From a virus: a stretch of 22,553 bases of DNA. This document shows positions 6,525 to 17,109 of the stretch, piece after piece (position 1 is the stretch's first letter; each line of letters begins with the position of its first letter). The notes beneath the pieces are model-generated. The model was not told the DNA's origin. It saw only the letters and a program-made list of their open reading frames with translations, and did no database searches. The stretch is from positions 1 through 22,553 of IMG/VR virus record IMGVR_UViG_3300035725_000011; one strand, given 5' to 3'. The position numbers and the translations under genes are program-made.

Positions 6525-7254
6525 AATTCTCCTCTCGTTCCTGTTCTGGGAAGGTGACAAGGCCATGATGTGCAAACTTGCGCGGCTGGTCGCCGACCTG
6601 GAACCGCGTATGTCCGAGTCCGCCGACGTGCTTTTCTCTGCGCGCTTCGACTGCACGCATGACCTCGACACCATTCAGTATGTCTCCCGAAAATTCAAAG
6701 TCCACACAAACATTTGTCGCGGACGCCGGGGCGTGGGTTGGCCTGCCGGCTGCAACGACATCGTCTTCGGCACTCTCGATTACGTCCACGATTACGGTGC
6801 GGCCCGGCGTATCCCTCCTTACAAGGCTGTCCTCCTTTTGGAGGCGGACGGTGCGCCACTTCGGACGGGCTGGATAGAGGACCTCTCGCGCGCGTGGGAC
6901 GAGGCGAACGCGGTCAAACCAGTTCGCGTATTCGGCCCATTGATTGCCGACGGCGTGCCGACCGCCGGGAAGCAGCATATCAACGGCAACTGCTTCGTCT
7001 CTGGCGACATGTCTTTTCTGCACTGGTTCACCCGCAAGCTGGGCGGTTGCACGCCGCGCGCGGGCTGGGACTGGATTCTTGCACCGCAATTCAAGCGCAT
7101 GGGCTGGGCCGACTGTAAACAGATGCGGTCTTGGTGGCGCTGTCCGCAGGTCACCCAGGAGACCTACAACGCGCTGCTTGACGCAGGCGTCAGCTACCTG
7201 CACGGGTGCAAGACCGACGACGTGCGCGAGCTAGTCCGAAAGAAATACCTGTGA
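6505..7254 (+). CDS. putative glycosyltransferase-like protein (249 aa)
   Basis: The start at ATG 6505 gives MANRPDKILLSFLFWEGDK, a plausible first beta strand, and overlaps the previous gene by 20 bases. The overall plan resembles a GT-A fold: strand one, then RRGVGWPAGCN at residues 74-84, an acidic motif KAVLLLEADGAPL at about 107-119 that could act as the metal site, HINGN at 148-152, GWDW at 177-180 and a C-terminal YLHGCK. I recall similar GWPxGCN proteins among uncharacterised phage and bacterial genes but cannot name the family or substrate. The setting, between a glycosyltransferase and a sulfotransferase, supports a carbohydrate role. Confidence 0.6.
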   Translation: MANRPDKILLSFLFWEGDKAMMCKLARLVADLEPRMSESADVLFSARFDCTHDLDTIQYVSRKFKVHTNICRGRRGVGWPAGCNDIVFGTLDYVHDYGAARRIPPYKAVLLLEADGAPLRTGWIEDLSRAWDEANAVKPVRVFGPLIADGVPTAGKQHINGNCFVSGDMSFLHWFTRKLGGCTPRAGWDWILAPQFKRMGWADCKQMRSWWRCPQVTQETYNALLDAGVSYLHGCKTDDVRELVRKKYL

Positions 7255-8156
7255 TTGGACCCCTGGGAGAAAATCTGATTTTCGCAATCGGCACGCCGCG
7301 CTCCGGCACCACGCTCGTTCAGCGCGTGCTCGCGGGCCACTCGAAAATTTTCGCGACCGCCGAACCCTGGATTATGCTCCACCCGCTCTACGCGTTGCGC
7401 GACGCTGGCCACACGGCGGATTACGACGCCAATCTCGCGCGCGAAGGGTTGAAGGATTTCTGCCAAGTTCTCCCCGGCGGCGAGCAGGCGTATGTCGAGG
7501 GACTGCGACACCTGTTCTGCGGGCTCTACAACGGGGTCACACCCGCCGACAAACAGTGTTTCCTCGACAAGACCCCCCGATATTTTTACATCGCTCCTGA
7601 ACTGAAGCGCGTGTTCCCGGCGGCGAAATTCGTGTTTATCCTCCGCAACCCGCTAGCGATTCTGGCGTCCACGCTGGACTCCTGGCTTAAGGGCGAGTGG
7701 CACGCATTTCACGGCCACCTGCCGGACCTGAAAAACGGCCCGCGTCACATGGCGGCAGCTCTCGACTTCTTCAAGGGCGACTCTATCCAGTTTCGATACG
7801 AGAACTTCGCGCAGCATCCCGAACCGGAATTCTCGCTCCTATGCGACCGACTCGAACTGCCGTTTGAGCCAGACATGTTGAACTACGGCACCAAGCCGAA
7901 GCCGTTCGGGCGAATGGGCGACGCCGTGGGAATACCCAAGCACACGCATCCCGTCAATGAGAGTGTGCAAAAATGGATGGAGACGCTGTCCGACCCCAAG
8001 CACCGATTTTTGGCCGAGCGATATCTGGAATGGCTGCCGGAGGACACCTGCACGCGCTTGGGATACCCCAAGTCCGAGATGATTCGCGCTCTTAATAGCC
8101 TGCCGGCGCCGCCGTCTGAATGCCCCATGTCCGGACTGGAAGATATTTTCAAATGA
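7251..8156 (+). CDS. PAPS-dependent sulfotransferase (301 aa)
   Basis: Transfers sulfate from 3'-phosphoadenylyl sulfate to a hydroxyl or amine, probably on a carbohydrate. The 5'-phosphosulfate loop is clear: AIGTPRSGTTLVQ at about residues 12-24. The 3'-phosphate site is LRNPLAILAS at 131-140, with R132 and S140 eight residues apart as in the family, preceded by FLDKTPR at about 104-110. Length and motif order fit the Sulfotransfer_3 type. GTG 7251 is the preferred start because it overlaps the preceding stop as GTGA; an upstream start at 7206 would need a longer overlap. No signal peptide or membrane segment, so it acts in the cytoplasm on host PAPS. Confidence 0.88.
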   Translation: MIGPLGENLIFAIGTPRSGTTLVQRVLAGHSKIFATAEPWIMLHPLYALRDAGHTADYDANLAREGLKDFCQVLPGGEQAYVEGLRHLFCGLYNGVTPADKQCFLDKTPRYFYIAPELKRVFPAAKFVFILRNPLAILASTLDSWLKGEWHAFHGHLPDLKNGPRHMAAALDFFKGDSIQFRYENFAQHPEPEFSLLCDRLELPFEPDMLNYGTKPKPFGRMGDAVGIPKHTHPVNESVQKWMETLSDPKHRFLAERYLEWLPEDTCTRLGYPKSEMIRALNSLPAPPSECPMSGLEDIFK

Positions 8157-9091
8157 ACTTGGACTCCAAAATCTATGTCGCCGGCCACCGCGGACTCGTC
8201 GGGGATGCCGTGCTTCGACTGCTCCGCGTGCGGGGCTTCCACAACATCGTGACGGCGACCTCCGCCGAGATGGACCTCACCAAGCCGGACCTCGTCCGTT
8301 GGTTCTTCTCTGTCCACAACATCGAATACGTCTTCCTGTGCGCGGCGCACGTCGGCGGCATCCTGGCCAACGACACGCACCGCGTGGACTTCTTGCTCAA
8401 GAACCTCGCCATCCAGACCAACGTCATCACGAACGCGGCGGCGTATGGCGTGAAGAAGCTGCTCTTTTTGGGGTCGTCCTGCATCTACCCGAAGAACGCC
8501 ACCCAGCCAATCACGCCGGACGCGCTGCTCACCGGGCCGTTCGAGCCGACGACCGAGGCCTACGGCATCGCCAAGTTTGCCGGCATCCGGCTCTGCCAAT
8601 ACCTCCGGGACGAGCAGGGGAAAAACTTCATCTGCGCCCAGCCGCCGAACCTCTACGGGCCGGGCGACCGGTTCGACGCCGCGCGGTCGCACGTCGTCCC
8701 CGGGCTAATTACGCGCATGCACCAAGCCAAAATGCTGGGGCTGCCGGAGCTGGCGGTCTGGGGCGACGGGACGGCCAAGCGCGAGCTGCTTTATGCGGAT
8801 GACCTCGCTGTGGCCCTGCTTTTCCTGATGCACGCCTACGACGGCCGGGAGCCGGTGAACACCGGCAGCGGCGACGAATGGACCATCCGCGCGATTGCCG
8901 ACGAGGTCCGCCGCGTGGTCGGCTACCAGGGCGCCCTCTTCTTCGACGACTCTAAGCCGACGGGCGTCCCCCGCAAGGTGCTGGACAATTCGTTCATCCG
9001 CGGCCTGGGCTGGCGTCCGAAGGTGGATTTTCCGGAGGGCCTGGAGCGGACGTATCGGGGCTTCTTGCAGCGAATGACGTTGGGGTCTTGA
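8153..9091 (+). CDS. fcl: GDP-L-fucose synthase (312 aa)
   Basis: Converts GDP-4-keto-6-deoxy-D-mannose to GDP-L-fucose with NADPH (an epimerase-reductase of the extended SDR family). It aligns by eye along its length with E. coli Fcl. The Rossmann motif AGHRGLVG is at residues 10-17, LGSSCIYPK at 107-114 gives the catalytic Ser and Cys, YGIAK at 137-141 gives Tyr and Lys, and His 180 in RSHVVP matches the second catalytic acid. NLYGPGDRF and GWGDGT-like VVWG-type segments follow. The ATG overlaps the sulfotransferase stop (ATGA). No GDP-mannose 4,6-dehydratase is in the window, so the substrate must come from elsewhere in the phage or the host. The stop codon lies inside the next promoter-like box. 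Confidence 0.96.
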   Translation: MNLDSKIYVAGHRGLVGDAVLRLLRVRGFHNIVTATSAEMDLTKPDLVRWFFSVHNIEYVFLCAAHVGGILANDTHRVDFLLKNLAIQTNVITNAAAYGVKKLLFLGSSCIYPKNATQPITPDALLTGPFEPTTEAYGIAKFAGIRLCQYLRDEQGKNFICAQPPNLYGPGDRFDAARSHVVPGLITRMHQAKMLGLPELAVWGDGTAKRELLYADDLAVALLFLMHAYDGREPVNTGSGDEWTIRAIADEVRRVVGYQGALFFDDSKPTGVPRKVLDNSFIRGLGWRPKVDFPEGLERTYRGFLQRMTLGS

Positions 9092-9778: not shown

Positions 9779-11059
9779 ATGGCTGGAGAATGTAACAGCG
9801 CAGACCAGATTTCTGAGATTGCGCAAAAAGACGTGTCCCGTCTCGTAGGGACTGTGGCGAAAACTCTCGCTGCAAACAGCGTGTTCATCAATGTCATCGG
9901 TGGAGGTGTCTTTCCATCAGGGGTTTCCGATGAAATAAGGTTTCCCGTTCAAATGCAGGCGGCTCCTGGCGACTCGCTGGCTCTCCCGACTTTTCAGTGC
10001 GACACTGAAGTCTGCGGAACCAACGGCATCCAGGACCTCACCGACGCGATTGATTTCACGGCTCGCTTGGAAACCAAGCGCGGTCGCGGTCCTCGCGTGT
10101 GTGTCAAGAAAGGCTACGCGGCCTTCAAGTCGAGCTACCTCTCGGCCGAAGATTCGCTCCGTAAGCTGATTACCCAATACGTGAATTCCGATATTCGCGC
10201 GCAGCTCTATCTGCGTTCGGCGTCGAAATTTAACGCGGTCGCGGGTTACGACTTCGACTCGCTGTTCACCGGTGGAACCGAAACGGACCTCGGCGTCCAG
10301 TTCGCTCCGCTCAATCCGACGGGTCCGCTCAGCTTCAAGGCTCTGCACTACGTCACGCGGTTCGTCAAAGAGGCGTTGTTCGCCTCCATGTTCGACAGCG
10401 AAGGCAAGGGTATGCCCCACGCTCGCTTCATCGGCAGCTCCGACATCATCGAGAGTTTCCGCAATGAAATTGGCGTGAAGGAAATCCTCATCGGTCTGAC
10501 GACCGGTGGATACAAGCTGGGCGAGCAATCGGTCAGCGCCTACCAGTTCGAAGAGGCCCCCGCTTACCGCGGCATCGCCTTCGGTGTGGACCAGCGTCCG
10601 CTCCGCGCCACTGGTTTCGACGGCGACGGCAACCTGATTCTGGTTGACCCCGTCGTGAACGTCGCGAACGTGTCGAAGAACACGGCATTCGCGAAAATCA
10701 ACCCCGCGTGGTTGGCCGCGACCTACGAGGTCGGGTTCCTGATGTTCGACAACACCTTCAACCGGCTGGTGCCCGAGAAGTATGTCGGCGAAGGCACGTT
10801 CAAGTATGCCCCGCAGCTTCACATGGGTGAGCTGGAGTGGCACTACATCGTGGACAACGACTGTAACCAGTTCGGCGACTTCGGCTGGCACAAGTATCAG
10901 ATTACTCGTGCCTACCAGCCGATTCGGCCGCAGCACGTCGTCCCCATCCTCTACAAGCGCTGCACCGCGGACCTCGGTCTGCCGGACTGCGCTGTGCCGG
11001 ACAGCTCCAGCTTCTCTGGAAGCGATGCGTTTGCCACGTTGGGCGTTTGCGACTCCTAA
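9779..11059 (+). CDS. major capsid protein (426 aa)
   Basis: Length, position after the scaffold and before the tail genes, and composition fit a HK97-fold major capsid protein. The N-terminal region is helical (DQISEIAQKDVSRLVGTVAK); the body is rich in short strands, with an E-loop-like stretch around residues 60-130 and an axial-domain-like end (FLMFDNTFNRLVPEKY, then YKRCTADLGLPDCAVP). No enzyme motif is present. The ATG at 9779 follows a T-run with no clear Shine-Dalgarno. It has its own promoter-like box and a strong hairpin after the stop, as expected for the most highly expressed virion gene. The call is by context and general resemblance; I cannot name the closest family. Confidence 0.8.
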   Translation: MAGECNSADQISEIAQKDVSRLVGTVAKTLAANSVFINVIGGGVFPSGVSDEIRFPVQMQAAPGDSLALPTFQCDTEVCGTNGIQDLTDAIDFTARLETKRGRGPRVCVKKGYAAFKSSYLSAEDSLRKLITQYVNSDIRAQLYLRSASKFNAVAGYDFDSLFTGGTETDLGVQFAPLNPTGPLSFKALHYVTRFVKEALFASMFDSEGKGMPHARFIGSSDIIESFRNEIGVKEILIGLTTGGYKLGEQSVSAYQFEEAPAYRGIAFGVDQRPLRATGFDGDGNLILVDPVVNVANVSKNTAFAKINPAWLAATYEVGFLMFDNTFNRLVPEKYVGEGTFKYAPQLHMGELEWHYIVDNDCNQFGDFGWHKYQITRAYQPIRPQHVVPILYKRCTADLGLPDCAVPDSSSFSGSDAFATLGVCDS

Positions 11060-11133: not shown

Positions 11134-11334
11134 ATGACTTACGTTCAAGCTCAAGCCGCCCTCCTGGCGCTCGGACATGACCTCAGCCTGACTGGCCTCG
11201 AAGGCCGCTCGGTCTCGGGTCTGTTGCAGGAACTCCTCGTCGCCGGTGGCTCCGCCATCACCGACAAGGGTGCCGGGTCCGATTACGATAACGCGCTCGT
11301 CACTGCGCTCGGTATCGATACGCCCATCAGCTGA
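11134..11334 (+). CDS. small protein of unknown function (66 aa)
   Basis: A short protein isolated between two GC-rich hairpins just after the capsid gene. It looks helical and neutral (MTYVQAQAALLALG, then SVSGLLQELLVAGG and a C-terminal DNALVTALGI). No cysteine, signal peptide or membrane segment is present. The flanking hairpins suggest that it is expressed apart from, or at a different level to, the genes on either side. A minor head protein is possible from position only. Confidence 0.6.
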   Translation: MTYVQAQAALLALGHDLSLTGLEGRSVSGLLQELLVAGGSAITDKGAGSDYDNALVTALGIDTPIS

Positions 11335-11376: not shown

Positions 11377-11574
11377 GTGTTCGACAACTTCAAAGTTTAC
11401 GCCGCCTCCGCCCTCGGGTTCGGCTCGCCCCTCGCAAATATTTTCCTCGACACATCCACCTCGGTTCTCGGTGTGCTGGTGTTGGTCGGACAGATTGCCG
11501 TCGCCACTGTCACGACGCTTTACATTTTCCGCAAGGCGCAAGCCCTGCGCAGCGACAAGAAAGACAAGAAGTAA
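11377..11574 (+). CDS. small membrane protein, holin candidate (65 aa)
   Basis: Begins with GTG directly after the hairpin. One clear membrane segment at about residues 29-51 (TSVLGVLVLVGQIAVATV) follows a mildly hydrophobic N-terminal helix, and the C-terminus is short and strongly basic (RKAQALRSDKKDKK). Size and charge pattern fit small phage holins, which form the lesions that start lysis. However, no endolysin is seen nearby, and many small phage membrane proteins look like this. The gene is followed two bases later by the next ATG. Confidence 0.6.
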   Translation: MFDNFKVYAASALGFGSPLANIFLDTSTSVLGVLVLVGQIAVATVTTLYIFRKAQALRSDKKDKK

Positions 11575-11576
11575 CC

Positions 11577-11780
11577 ATGAGCAACGCATACAACGACCCC
11601 GTCCAACGCCTCGGCGAAAAACTCGCTGCGGACCTCGGCATCGTCGCCAACCCTTACGACGCGGAAATCGACCTGTGGGTCCGCGCGGCTGCCATTGTCG
11701 GCGCCAGCGTGAGCACCTCCACGCCGCTCGATGAAGCCCGCGTCCGTGTGCTTCAGAACTGCACGCTCACCCCGGCCTAA
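11577..11780 (+). CDS. small protein with NDP-L-K motif, unknown function (67 aa)
   Basis: A short protein whose N-terminus, NDPVQRLGEKLAADL at residues 6-20, matches the opening of the tail-fibre-like product at 11931 (NDPDNTLLKKICLLL at 8-22) in spacing and key residues. A looser second copy may lie at about 26-42 (NPYDAEIDLWVRAAAIVGA). The stop TAA overlaps the next ATG by one base (TAATG). I know no function; a short oligomerising or attachment module shared with fibre genes is inference. Confidence 0.65.
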   Translation: MSNAYNDPVQRLGEKLAADLGIVANPYDAEIDLWVRAAAIVGASVSTSTPLDEARVRVLQNCTLTPA

Positions 11781-11929
11781 TGTATCCGGACCCATCACCG
11801 AAATGGGGCGACTCCGAGAACACGCTGCTGGGTAAGTGGCTGGAAATCCTTGGAGGGGAAGCCAAGCCTGGGGACTCAGACCACCAGCTGCTCTACCGCA
11901 TTGCCCTGCTCCTAGACAACGCTTTTTGA
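11780..11929 (+). CDS. 49-aa protein made of two copies of a short motif
   Basis: Very short, but the junctions on both sides are tight: TAATG with the gene before, and one base between its TGA and the next ATG at 11931. The protein contains GDSENTLLGKWLEIL at residues 10-24 and GDSDHQLLYRIALLL at 31-45, a clear internal duplication. The same pattern opens the neighbouring 11931 product and, less exactly, the 11577 product. Shared motif plus overlap geometry make a real gene likely. The function is unknown. Confidence 0.7.
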   Translation: MYPDPSPKWGDSENTLLGKWLEILGGEAKPGDSDHQLLYRIALLLDNAF

Positions 11930-11930
11930 T

Positions 11931-12737
11931 ATGGACACGACTCCTCGCTTTAACGACCCAGACAACACGTTACTGAAGAAAATCTGTCTTCTGCTTCACG
12001 GGGGGGTGTCGAGTGGCGTCCTCACTTTCAACACGCGTTCGGGGGCCATCACGCTCACGGGTGCGGACGTGACGGGCGCCCTCGGCTACACGCCGGTGAA
12101 TCCCTCTGGCGCCACGCTGACTGGGTCTTTGGTCCTGCCTACCGGCATCCACCTTTTCCTCGGCCCGGCCAACGCTACTCACCCCGCTCTAAAGGATTCT
12201 GGAGTGGGTATCGCGGAAGTATCTCTTCGCAAGGGCGATGATTCGGGTTACGCCAATTTATTGGTTGGGTTTGTGCAAGCCCGAATCGAGGACACGGGAA
12301 CCGGGACTTCCCCCGCGGCTTTTGAGGTGTATCACAACACTACATCCGGAACTCCTGCGATAAACTGCGGCGTGTCCTACGACATGCGCGCGGATTCTAG
12401 CACTACGGACCGGCAACTTCAGTGCCGGTTTTCCACGCTGTGGACGGACGCCACACACGCTACGCGCACGTCGCACCTGCGATTCCTTCCCACCTTGAAC
12501 GGCGTCACCACGGAGGCTTTGCGTCTTTCGAATGCCCAGGTTGACGCGCGCAATGGCGCGGTATTCGCTGTCGCCGGCACACAGGTAGTGACCTCTCGCA
12601 AGACTGGATGGACCGCAGCGACGGGGACTTCCTCGCGCGCGACCTTTGCAACCACGACTGTCACGACCGAGGAACTAGCCCAACGGCTGAAGGCGCTGTT
12701 GGAAGACCTCACCAGCCACGGGCTCATCGGCACCTAA
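11931..12737 (+). CDS. tail-fibre-like protein (268 aa)
   Basis: After the NDPDNTLLKKICLLL motif (residues 8-22) comes FNTRSGAITLTGADVTGALGYTPVN at about 34-58, the repeat type found in many phage tail fibres and host-recognition proteins. The middle is beta-rich and low in charge (DTGTGTSPAAFEVYHNTTSG), and the end is a helix (TEELAQRLKALLEDLTSHGL) that could trimerise the fibre. It should sit at the tail periphery and contact the host surface. TAATG overlap with the next gene. Confidence 0.72.
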   Translation: MDTTPRFNDPDNTLLKKICLLLHGGVSSGVLTFNTRSGAITLTGADVTGALGYTPVNPSGATLTGSLVLPTGIHLFLGPANATHPALKDSGVGIAEVSLRKGDDSGYANLLVGFVQARIEDTGTGTSPAAFEVYHNTTSGTPAINCGVSYDMRADSSTTDRQLQCRFSTLWTDATHATRTSHLRFLPTLNGVTTEALRLSNAQVDARNGAVFAVAGTQVVTSRKTGWTAATGTSSRATFATTTVTTEELAQRLKALLEDLTSHGLIGT

Positions 12738-13264
12738 TGAAAATTCTACTCGCGCTCGCACTAGCACTCGCACTGGTCGCCGGCTGCACGCTCCCGCTCA
12801 AGCCGGGGTCGGCTTCTATTAAGTCGGCAAGCGGCGAGGTGGTTTCCGTCAAGCAATCCCAGAACCCGCTTAACGAAACCGTCCAGGACTACAAGCGGAC
12901 GACCAGCCAGGAAGGCACCACCGAGGAAGTCCACACGAAAATCGGCGCGGCCCAGAAAGACGTGGCCCGCGAGCTGGGGGCCAAGCTGTCCTCGCTCCGG
13001 CCGGTGATGTGGGTCGGCATTTTGGTTTTGCTTTTCGGCGTGGCCAGCGCGGTTTGGCCCCCACTTAAGGTGCTCGTCGGTGGCAGCGTCACCACGTCCG
13101 CCGTAATCGCCGCGGCCGGCGCCGGCATGATTGTGCTCCCCGTCCTCGTGGTCGGGCATGAGATTTTGATTCTCTCCGTTGCCGCGGGTGCGGCGGCGCT
13201 CTATTTTTTCGCGCACCGACACGGCAACCTGCGAGGACAACTCAGTGCGCTTCTGGGAAAGTAA
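12737..13264 (+). CDS. lipoprotein with three membrane segments (175 aa)
   Basis: The ATG at 12737 overlaps the previous stop (TAATG) and gives a textbook lipoprotein signal, MKILLALALALALVAGC, with lipobox LVAGC and the lipid-bearing Cys at 17. A soluble polar stretch (about 18-88) follows, with SASGEVVSVKQSQ and a charged helix. Then come three hydrophobic segments at about 90-107, 117-139 and 142-158 and a basic tail. A phage lipoprotein beside a holin candidate could act in lysis (spanin-like), but spanins do not usually carry three extra membrane spans, so superinfection exclusion or another envelope role is equally possible. Confidence 0.68.
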   Translation: MKILLALALALALVAGCTLPLKPGSASIKSASGEVVSVKQSQNPLNETVQDYKRTTSQEGTTEEVHTKIGAAQKDVARELGAKLSSLRPVMWVGILVLLFGVASAVWPPLKVLVGGSVTTSAVIAAAGAGMIVLPVLVVGHEILILSVAAGAAALYFFAHRHGNLRGQLSALLGK

Positions 13265-13267
13265 ACT

Positions 13268-14431
13268 ATGTCGTGCTCTAACTGCAACAATTGCGACTGC
13301 GGCGGGTGCGGTGGCGCGGACTGCAACTCGACTTTTCCCGCGAGCTGCAACCCCCAGGCCAACTGTTCTCCCTGCAAGTCCTGTCCTCCGAATAGCGCGG
13401 ATTGTGAGACGCTCCCAAGCGCACTACAGAATTTCGTCGATGCCTTTTTCGGTTCGGTCACGAAGACTGAAATAGACGGGCAGGTCACCTGGATTCTCCC
13501 GTGCAACCTGGACATCGGCTTGCCCGGCAACCCGCGCGCGGACGGCGAAGGGCTCGCGTGTTATTTCCTGCGGCTGTTCCGGGATGGCATCAACGGGCTT
13601 GAAGGCCCGACTGGCGCGACCGGCGCGGCCGGCGAAAACGGTGCCAATCCCTGGACGATTATCCTAACCGCGTTTGTGCAGCCGACGGCCGGCGGCACGG
13701 TGAACTTCAACATCGTGGACTCGCCCTCGGTCACCGTGGGCCAGACAGTTTTCATCCCGGGGTCCGGCTACTACATCATCACGAGCCGCGTCTCCAACTC
13801 GGTATTCGCGCAGCTCATCGAGTCTGTGCCGACGCCGAACGCGGTCACCGTCCCGGGCACCCTTGTGCTGCCCTGCGGGCCGCGCGGGCTCACCATTACC
13901 GGTCCGACTGGCGCACCCGGCTTGCAGGGTCCCACGGGCGCGCAAGGTATTCAAGGCCCGACCGGCCCGACAGGGGCAACGGGTCCGACCGGGCCGACGG
14001 GGGCTGTCTCCACGAACTCCAACGGGCAGGTGGTCATCACCGGCGCGACGGACATGACGGTGACGAACTCGGACAACAAAATCACGTTCGGCATCGACGA
14101 CCCGGAAGTCACGCTCCCGACCATCGGCACATATTTCGTCATGGCGCGCTTCCGCTGCTTCAATGACATCGGCAGCGGGGACAATCTTCAGTGGGATTTT
14201 TACCTGAACAATCAGACGACTGCGACCCCGGTGCCCGGCGGCGAGCACCCGGACACCATCATCTGGAACACCGGTGGAAGCAACCACTGCACGTATGTCC
14301 ACATCTGGGCGATTGTGCAGACCGCGAGCATCAACAACATCATCGACGCGCACGTCACGTCCGAAAGTGCCTCGGCACCGCAGACGATTTTTCAGGACGG
14401 CTCGAACATCATGTTCATCAAACTGGCATGA
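13268..14431 (+). CDS. collagen-like fibre protein with Cys-rich N-terminus (387 aa)
   Basis: The N-terminus has 11 Cys in the first 46 residues (SCSNCNNCDCGGCGGADC onwards). Short Gly-X-Y runs follow at about 113-127 and 212-247 ([18 protein letters not shown]), which should form a triple helix and so a trimeric fibre. Between them lies a beta domain (PSVTVGQTVFIPGSGYYIITS). The end, about 270-387, looks like a C1q/TNF-type jelly roll head (TLPTIGTYFVMARFRCF, then WDFYLNNQTTATPVPGG), a frequent tip for collagen-like adhesins. Probably a receptor-binding or surface fibre. The stop overlaps the next ATG by ATGA. Confidence 0.78.
   Translation: MSCSNCNNCDCGGCGGADCNSTFPASCNPQANCSPCKSCPPNSADCETLPSALQNFVDAFFGSVTKTEIDGQVTWILPCNLDIGLPGNPRADGEGLACYFLRLFRDGINGLEGPTGATGAAGENGANPWTIILTAFVQPTAGGTVNFNIVDSPSVTVGQTVFIPGSGYYIITSRVSNSVFAQLIESVPTPNAVTVPGTLVLPCGPRGLTITGPTGAPGLQGPTGAQGIQGPTGPTGATGPTGPTGAVSTNSNGQVVITGATDMTVTNSDNKITFGIDDPEVTLPTIGTYFVMARFRCFNDIGSGDNLQWDFYLNNQTTATPVPGGEHPDTIIWNTGGSNHCTYVHIWAIVQTASINNIIDAHVTSESASAPQTIFQDGSNIMFIKLA

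Positions 14432-14636: not shown

Positions 14637-14640
<4 letters not shown>
14428..14640 (+). CDS. small protein between collagen-like fibres (70 aa)
   Basis: Coupled on both sides by ATGA overlaps to the collagen-like genes before and after, so it is made together with them. It starts MNDCTHPLHRDTEGDLSRPC, with two Cys and two His that could bind metal, then GRTLPERIIVNQ and an acidic end (DDVLQDEDGFPLLDEASG). I do not recognise a family. A fibre chaperone or small fibre part is a guess from the operon position. Confidence 0.65.

Positions 14641-17105
<2,465 letters not shown>

Positions 17106-17109
<4 letters not shown>

Follow-up and report, generated by a model that had tools for sequence, protein, structure and literature searches.

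The locus and the question it raises

Behind the presumed capsid gene of a tailed phage, two adjacent genes carry the same short repeat, and the question that this locus raises is what such a repeat does there. The window, namely the whole stretch of DNA analyzed here, is the 22.5-kb record IMGVR_UViG_3300035725_000011 (22,553 nucleotides), and the genomes of its group of soil phages have a size of approximately 70-75 kb. As far as the translations can be read, the gene order runs from a terminase-like through a portal-like to a coiled-coil scaffold-like protein, for which no match was found in family searches, and then over a few metabolic genes to a gene encoding a protein of 426 amino acids (9779-11059, plus strand). 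This last protein is 62-74% identical across the group and had no match in sequence family searches; its AlphaFold model is poor (pLDDT of 39), and the five best, though weak, matches of the model in the PDB are all capsids of tailed phages. Based upon its position, its conservation and this low-confidence model, we presume that it is the major capsid protein, and its gene was used as an anchor for comparing loci. The metabolic genes include a sulfotransferase and a sugar-nucleotide epimerase (7206-9091), which lie between the scaffold-like and capsid genes, an unusual spot for genes of this kind.

Downstream of the capsid gene are small genes, two genes with the motif, a lipoprotein-like gene and several collagen-like proteins. 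Two of the small genes (11134-11334 and 11577-11780) lie in the interval from the capsid gene to the motif genes but are outside the motif family; their relatives at the same position start with MSNAYNDPV, MNAYNDPKD or MAEFVEHGLHDQEW and have little sequence in common, so that these genes may be fast-evolving. A small membrane protein (11377-11574) and the lipoprotein-like protein (12737-13264) are conserved in the capsid region across the group and possibly represent holin/spanin-like lysis genes, albeit at a place that is unusual for such genes. Further downstream, three consecutive collagen-like proteins with G-P-T repeats are encoded at 13268-14431, 14637-15731 and 15733-17109; in addition to the fibre with the motif, this phage thus encodes three or more virion proteins of the collagen type.

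A 20-residue repeat in two adjacent genes

The first-pass annotation of this DNA had proposed that a short motif is common to three adjacent genes starting at 11577, 11780 and 11931, and the four segments quoted for it are indeed all present in the translations. When these segments were scored with a leave-clade-out profile, from which all sequences of the window's subclade had been left out, the proposal held for the latter two genes. In the 49-residue miniprotein (11780-11929, plus strand), the first copy (PKWGDSENTLLGKWLEILGG, 11798-11857) scored 29.6 bits and the second copy (AKPGDSDHQLLYRIALLLDN, 11861-11920), 21 residues past the first, scored 20.8 bits, with 9.7 bits for the best of 1000 shuffles; the protein is therefore, as had been claimed, little more than two tandem copies. 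The third copy (PRFNDPDNTLLKKICLLLHG, 11943-12002) at the N-terminus of the 268-residue fibre-like protein (11931-12737, plus strand) scored 19.4 bits, with 4.2 bits for the best of 1000 shuffles. The alleged fourth copy in the 11577 product (NDPVQRLGEKLAADL) scored -5 bits and did not outscore its own shuffles, and the motif is not kept in the relatives at the same position. Two adjacent genes thus share the motif, and the number of copies is three.

The repeat is a unit of 20 residues with the consensus P-x-x-G-D-[ST]-D-N-x-L-L-x-K-[IW]-x-x-x-L. D5 is invariant in the 102 distinct copies (102/102), followed by K13 (97), L11 (96), G4 (75) and N8 (75). In 118 loci, the coding strand accounted for all 173 matches above 8 bits; an iterated 20-column profile raised the count in these loci to 196 copies of at least 9 bits, and the opposite strand was again without a match. 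Also, the 11780 ORF behaves like a real gene and is under purifying selection, with dN of 0.03-0.17 against dS of 0.37-1.3 in the pairs with estimable dS. The stop codon of the 11577 gene overlaps the start codon of the 11780 gene by one base, and the 11931 gene starts one base past the stop of the 11780 gene, from which the three genes look translationally coupled.

No credible match of the repeat region was found in Pfam, PHROGs and NCBIfam; one short PHROG match of L116, a five-copy protein, was to phrog_13935 (E = 1.5e-4 over 15 residues), the function of which is not described. Descriptions of the repeat were not met in the open-access literature searched, which is not proof of absence. 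A dockerin-like calcium repeat was considered for the tandem helical repeats and rejected, because there was no Pfam match and the consensus has no D-x-N-x-D loop. A strict DNA pattern gave seven chance-like matches in cellular genomes, and a decoy pattern with the spacing off by one residue gave 16 matches, none of which were motif-like; a profile search in 754 cellular genomes of two bacterial classes was empty, a result of little weight without a positive control. At its C-terminus, the 11931 product has a short match to the tail needle family PHROG 1219 (E = 7.4e-6), and the relative L030 matches a tail needle (2e-6) and a tail fibre (9.3e-5).

Distribution and layouts

We compared 82 distinct slots behind the capsid gene, or 81 once one duplicate of the window had been removed. 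The motif is present just after the capsid gene in 51 of the 81 and absent in 30, and its offset from the capsid stop codon is mostly no more than 1 kb. In the motif-negative loci that we inspected, a small membrane-protein gene usually stands directly 3' of the capsid gene; the motif genes hence look like an accessory insertion. One single-copy body was found in 18 loci, and the combination of a two-copy miniprotein with a single-copy body, which is the type of the window and the commonest multi-gene layout, in 12 loci. A lone small single-copy ORF occupies five loci, four of which encode 31-residue peptides. Five copies in one chain occur with a body in three loci and without a body in three; L116, with five copies and no body, has in addition a single-copy gene further downstream. 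The remaining layouts are 2+3 (L050 and L063), 2+1+2+3 (L066), 3+1 (two loci), two copies with a body (two loci), and 2+1+1, three copies with a body and three copies alone (one locus each). In L066 (7535-10238), two full sets follow the capsid gene, namely a two-copy protein with a single-copy collagen fibre and then a two-copy with a three-copy protein.

By sequence, the bodies that follow the motif form 13 clusters with no detectable similarity between them, and their types are those of the virion surface: collagen-like, tail-fibre-like, tail-needle-like and Fn3-like, the last label being our reading of matches to minor tail proteins. Poly-Gly stretches often come directly after the motif. 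In the profile search that the first-pass annotation had recommended, fibre-like as well as other accessory proteins were found to have the motif at their N-termini, so that the refuting outcome named there did not occur. Several nearly complete records have further motif copies far from the capsid gene. Away from that gene, ORFs of 113-165 amino acids in L138, L139, L145 and L165 have one motif copy before a small compact domain, and a second class of proteins may thus use the same anchor.

Number of copies in a chain

Of the 62 distinct chains with the motif, 36 have a single copy, while 14 have two, six have three and six have five; there are none with four copies and none beyond five. L074, L174 and L171 are additional chains with five copies, in the last of which two diverged units were recognized by eye. 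If the length of arrays were geometrically distributed, the probability of five given at least four would be no more than 0.25, and six out of six would have a probability of about 2e-4 for independent arrays, a figure to be read as descriptive, given that some of these data had already served to form the hypothesis. When repeat i was compared with repeat i across arrays, L116 and L084 were the only pair whose entire arrays appeared to share an ancestor, though repeats of 20 residues give such a comparison little power. Neighbouring copies are spaced by 21 to 34 residues, and the tandem arrays fit the local duplication that the first-pass annotation had suggested. The number of copies per chain is, nonetheless, not free but capped at five; this qualifies the earlier idea of a mobile helix and points to a target with five-fold symmetry. 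We also considered and rejected the rule that the gene-encoded copies of a locus always add up to five, since other totals occur; the rule of five is hence limited to single chains and to the ring that we propose, once assembled. In the sequence examined, a partner is lacking for the three-copy chains L106 and L108 (with a body) and L212 (without a body) and for the two-copy chains with a body, L070 and L077.

Predicted fold of a five-copy chain

The 106-residue five-copy protein of L116 was modelled by AlphaFold2 together with seven aligned arrays. The model (pLDDT of 93.3, pTM of 0.85) predicts one compact domain with five 11-residue helices and 10-residue loops, in which the five helices would close into a ring. 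A Foldseek search of the model against the PDB gave no significant match; among the re-aligned PDB chains, the best alignment was to 8FJE (Z of 4.8 over 97 residues with an rmsd of 3.5; 2.7 for the next), and for helical repeats a Z at this level is low. In a viral structure library, a 119-residue and a 288-residue protein matched at a probability of 1.00, the former with a TM score of 0.80 and an rmsd of 1.5; judging from the equal length, the latter would be the protein of Vibrio phage 1.115.A described below. The idea of a repeated docking or oligomerizing helix to which a fibre is attached is thus borne out in so far as the motif precedes 13 unrelated groups of bodies and the five-copy chain is predicted to fold as one domain.

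Related proteins in isolate phages

The collection of isolate phages contained no convincing relative of the window's own fibre or miniprotein, and it was the L116 array with its five copies that provided the link: tblastn with this array reached siphophages of Vibrio breoganii (E = 1e-3), and hhalign of the isolate against the soil-phage repeat family gave a probability of 94.3% (E = 9.7e-8). In phage 1.115.A, the 288-residue hypothetical protein AUR88483.1 starts with five repeats followed by a body, and its gene is separated from the annotated major capsid gene by one small gene. The 114-residue protein of 1.240.O has little beyond five repeats. An unannotated 38-residue ORF with two repeats precedes a one-repeat body in 1.189.O, which is the 2+1 layout of the window; in 1.148.O and 1.206.O (L314 and L315, ORF at 2501), an in-frame stop cuts the second repeat that is intact in 1.189.O. 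Vibrio phage 1.266.O has two single-copy bodies and a two-copy peptide, and the Pseudoalteromonas phages HS2 and BS5 have the 2+1 and 3+1 layouts, respectively. These proteins therefore resemble those of the soil group in their place one small gene after the major capsid gene, in their helical repeat of 20-21 residues and in their layouts (5, 2+1 and 3+1), but their signature is RNxLLxxIL..GG instead of GD[ST]DNxLLxKI; they are annotated as hypothetical, apart from the two-copy ORF without annotation.

The capsid proteins of 1.115.A and BS5 match PHROG 247 and have no similarity to that of the window by BLAST. Between 1.115.A (five copies) and 1.148.O (2+1 layout), the capsid proteins are 98.8% identical, whereas those of 1.115.A and 1.189.O are 29% identical; the anchor module thus differs between phages with nearly the same capsid, and similar modules are used with capsids that have diverged. 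HS2 and BS5 have closely similar single-copy bodies but partners with two and three copies, respectively, and a fixed trimer of that body can therefore not give five in both phages.

A proposed five-helix anchor and its alternatives

Given the shared repeat, its modularity, the limit on copy number, the compact five-helix fold in the prediction and the linkage to the capsid gene in two lineages, we lean slightly towards the following answer: the motif is one-fifth of a small ring of five N-capped helices, formed by one or several chains, that anchors accessory surface proteins, most likely at the capsid vertices. In phages with five copies, a single chain, with or without a body, would close the ring, and elsewhere several chains would pool their helices as 2+3, 2+1+1+1, 3+1+1 or five single copies. 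Capsid vertices are five-fold, while the symmetries of tail and portal are 6 and 12. Vertices are hence the obvious five-fold sites, and, because the genes also adjoin the capsid gene in two groups, we propose that it is there, or less likely at another five-fold position in the virion, that the ring would be seated and hold accessory surface proteins. In the window, three chains of the 11931 fibre would give three helices and one 49-residue protein would give two, making a vertex fibre. Trimerization of the 11931 body is suggested by its tail-needle-like C-terminus and by the collagen repeats in the homologous fibre of L066, and the 11780 miniprotein is a body-less paralogue of the fibre N-terminus, the two units of which would fill the remaining five-fold positions.

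A more general form of this proposal is plausible, but we would put it somewhat short of even: the 20-residue helix may serve as a currency, so that any chains totalling five helices close the ring, a miniprotein of 38-49 residues fixes the number of fibre chains, and body and valency are swapped with the capsid unchanged. The copy number n of the small partner would then set how many single-copy chains join, namely 5 minus n; five copies would go with one body, three with two single-copy chains, two with three, and one with five.

Four other explanations need to be weighed against the anchor ring. Each copy might instead dock alone in one of five equivalent pockets of a capsid pentamer or base protein, like beads on a string and without mutual packing. 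The variable spacing of the copies and the flexible Gly stretches preceding bodies would suit such an arrangement, and the head fibre of RcGTA docks in this way, with five residues in five pockets (PMC7296036). We nevertheless regard it as unlikely, albeit deserving serious attention, because a single compact domain is predicted for the five-copy chain (pTM of 0.85) and a related fold exists in the viral library. Somewhat less likely still, though likewise to be taken seriously, is oligomerization only, in which the helices join fibres and small partners into a complex on the tail or another part of the virion instead of the vertex. In its favour, the bodies resemble tail fibre and tail needle families, and additional genes with the motif are found at a distance from the capsid gene. 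Against it, in two lineages whose capsid proteins are unrelated, the capsid gene is directly followed by these genes, and five is the number of the vertex and not of the tail or portal. It is improbable that the motif is a targeting peptide sending proteins into or onto the procapsid during assembly with no structural ring; a short N-terminal motif common to unrelated bodies and encoded beside capsid genes would be in line with that role, but the free two- and five-copy miniproteins, the limit of five copies and the compact predicted fold would be left unexplained. Finally, chance resemblance among amphipathic helices, of which the 11577 segment is a case, is refuted for 11780 and 11931 by the leave-clade-out scores, the lack of reverse-strand matches, the dN/dS values and the decoy pattern, and can practically be dismissed.

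If the five-helix anchor is correct, tiny or unannotated ORFs beside capsid genes would be explained as structural parts of the virion, and the motif would serve as a sequence tag for recognizing accessory virion proteins in metagenomic phages. It would also add another natural answer to the mismatch between five-fold and three-fold symmetry, besides those of adenovirus and PR772. The modules of soil phages and some marine phages are related despite capsids with little or no sequence similarity, and the Vibrio isolates with near-identical capsid proteins (98.8%) and unlike layouts make the idea directly testable.

Comparison with known systems

Among solved structures, the closest match to the L116 model, 8FJE, is the designed closed five-repeat pseudocycle E8 (PMC10643118); it is a designed protein without homology, and the score is low. 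In adenovirus, N-terminal peptides of the fibre bind between penton subunits at the five-fold vertex, where a trimer meets a pentamer (PMC3386624); unlike the anchor proposed for the window, however, the fibre peptide is extended and has neither repeats nor a filler protein. The head fibre (Rcc01080) of RcGTA, the gene transfer agent of Rhodobacter capsulatus, sits on the pentameric jelly-roll base Rcc01079 as a five-point star, with one flexible fibre per vertex (PMC7296036). A single chain meets there the five-fold vertex via five N-terminal repeated units, as we propose by analogy for the five-copy chains, and the trait of five units in one chain is found in L084, L083, L294 and Vibrio 1.115.A, while the window differs with its 2+1 layout. 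The unit in RcGTA is one (iso)leucine in a 9-residue peptide, whereas the one described here is a helical repeat of 20 residues, which also occurs distributed over several chains. In the penton of the tectivirus PR772, which is made of P5 and P31, three chains of a trimeric collagen-containing spike are combined with two copies of a short body-less paralogue into a five-fold base (PMC6750898), and this 3+2 arrangement would follow the same logic as that proposed for the window. P5 and P31 are, nonetheless, single-domain subunits of approximately 125 residues; they make up the penton itself, and their phage is tailless and contains a membrane. The proteins described here belong to tailed phages, and their unit is a helix of 20 residues, which the miniprotein contains twice in one chain.
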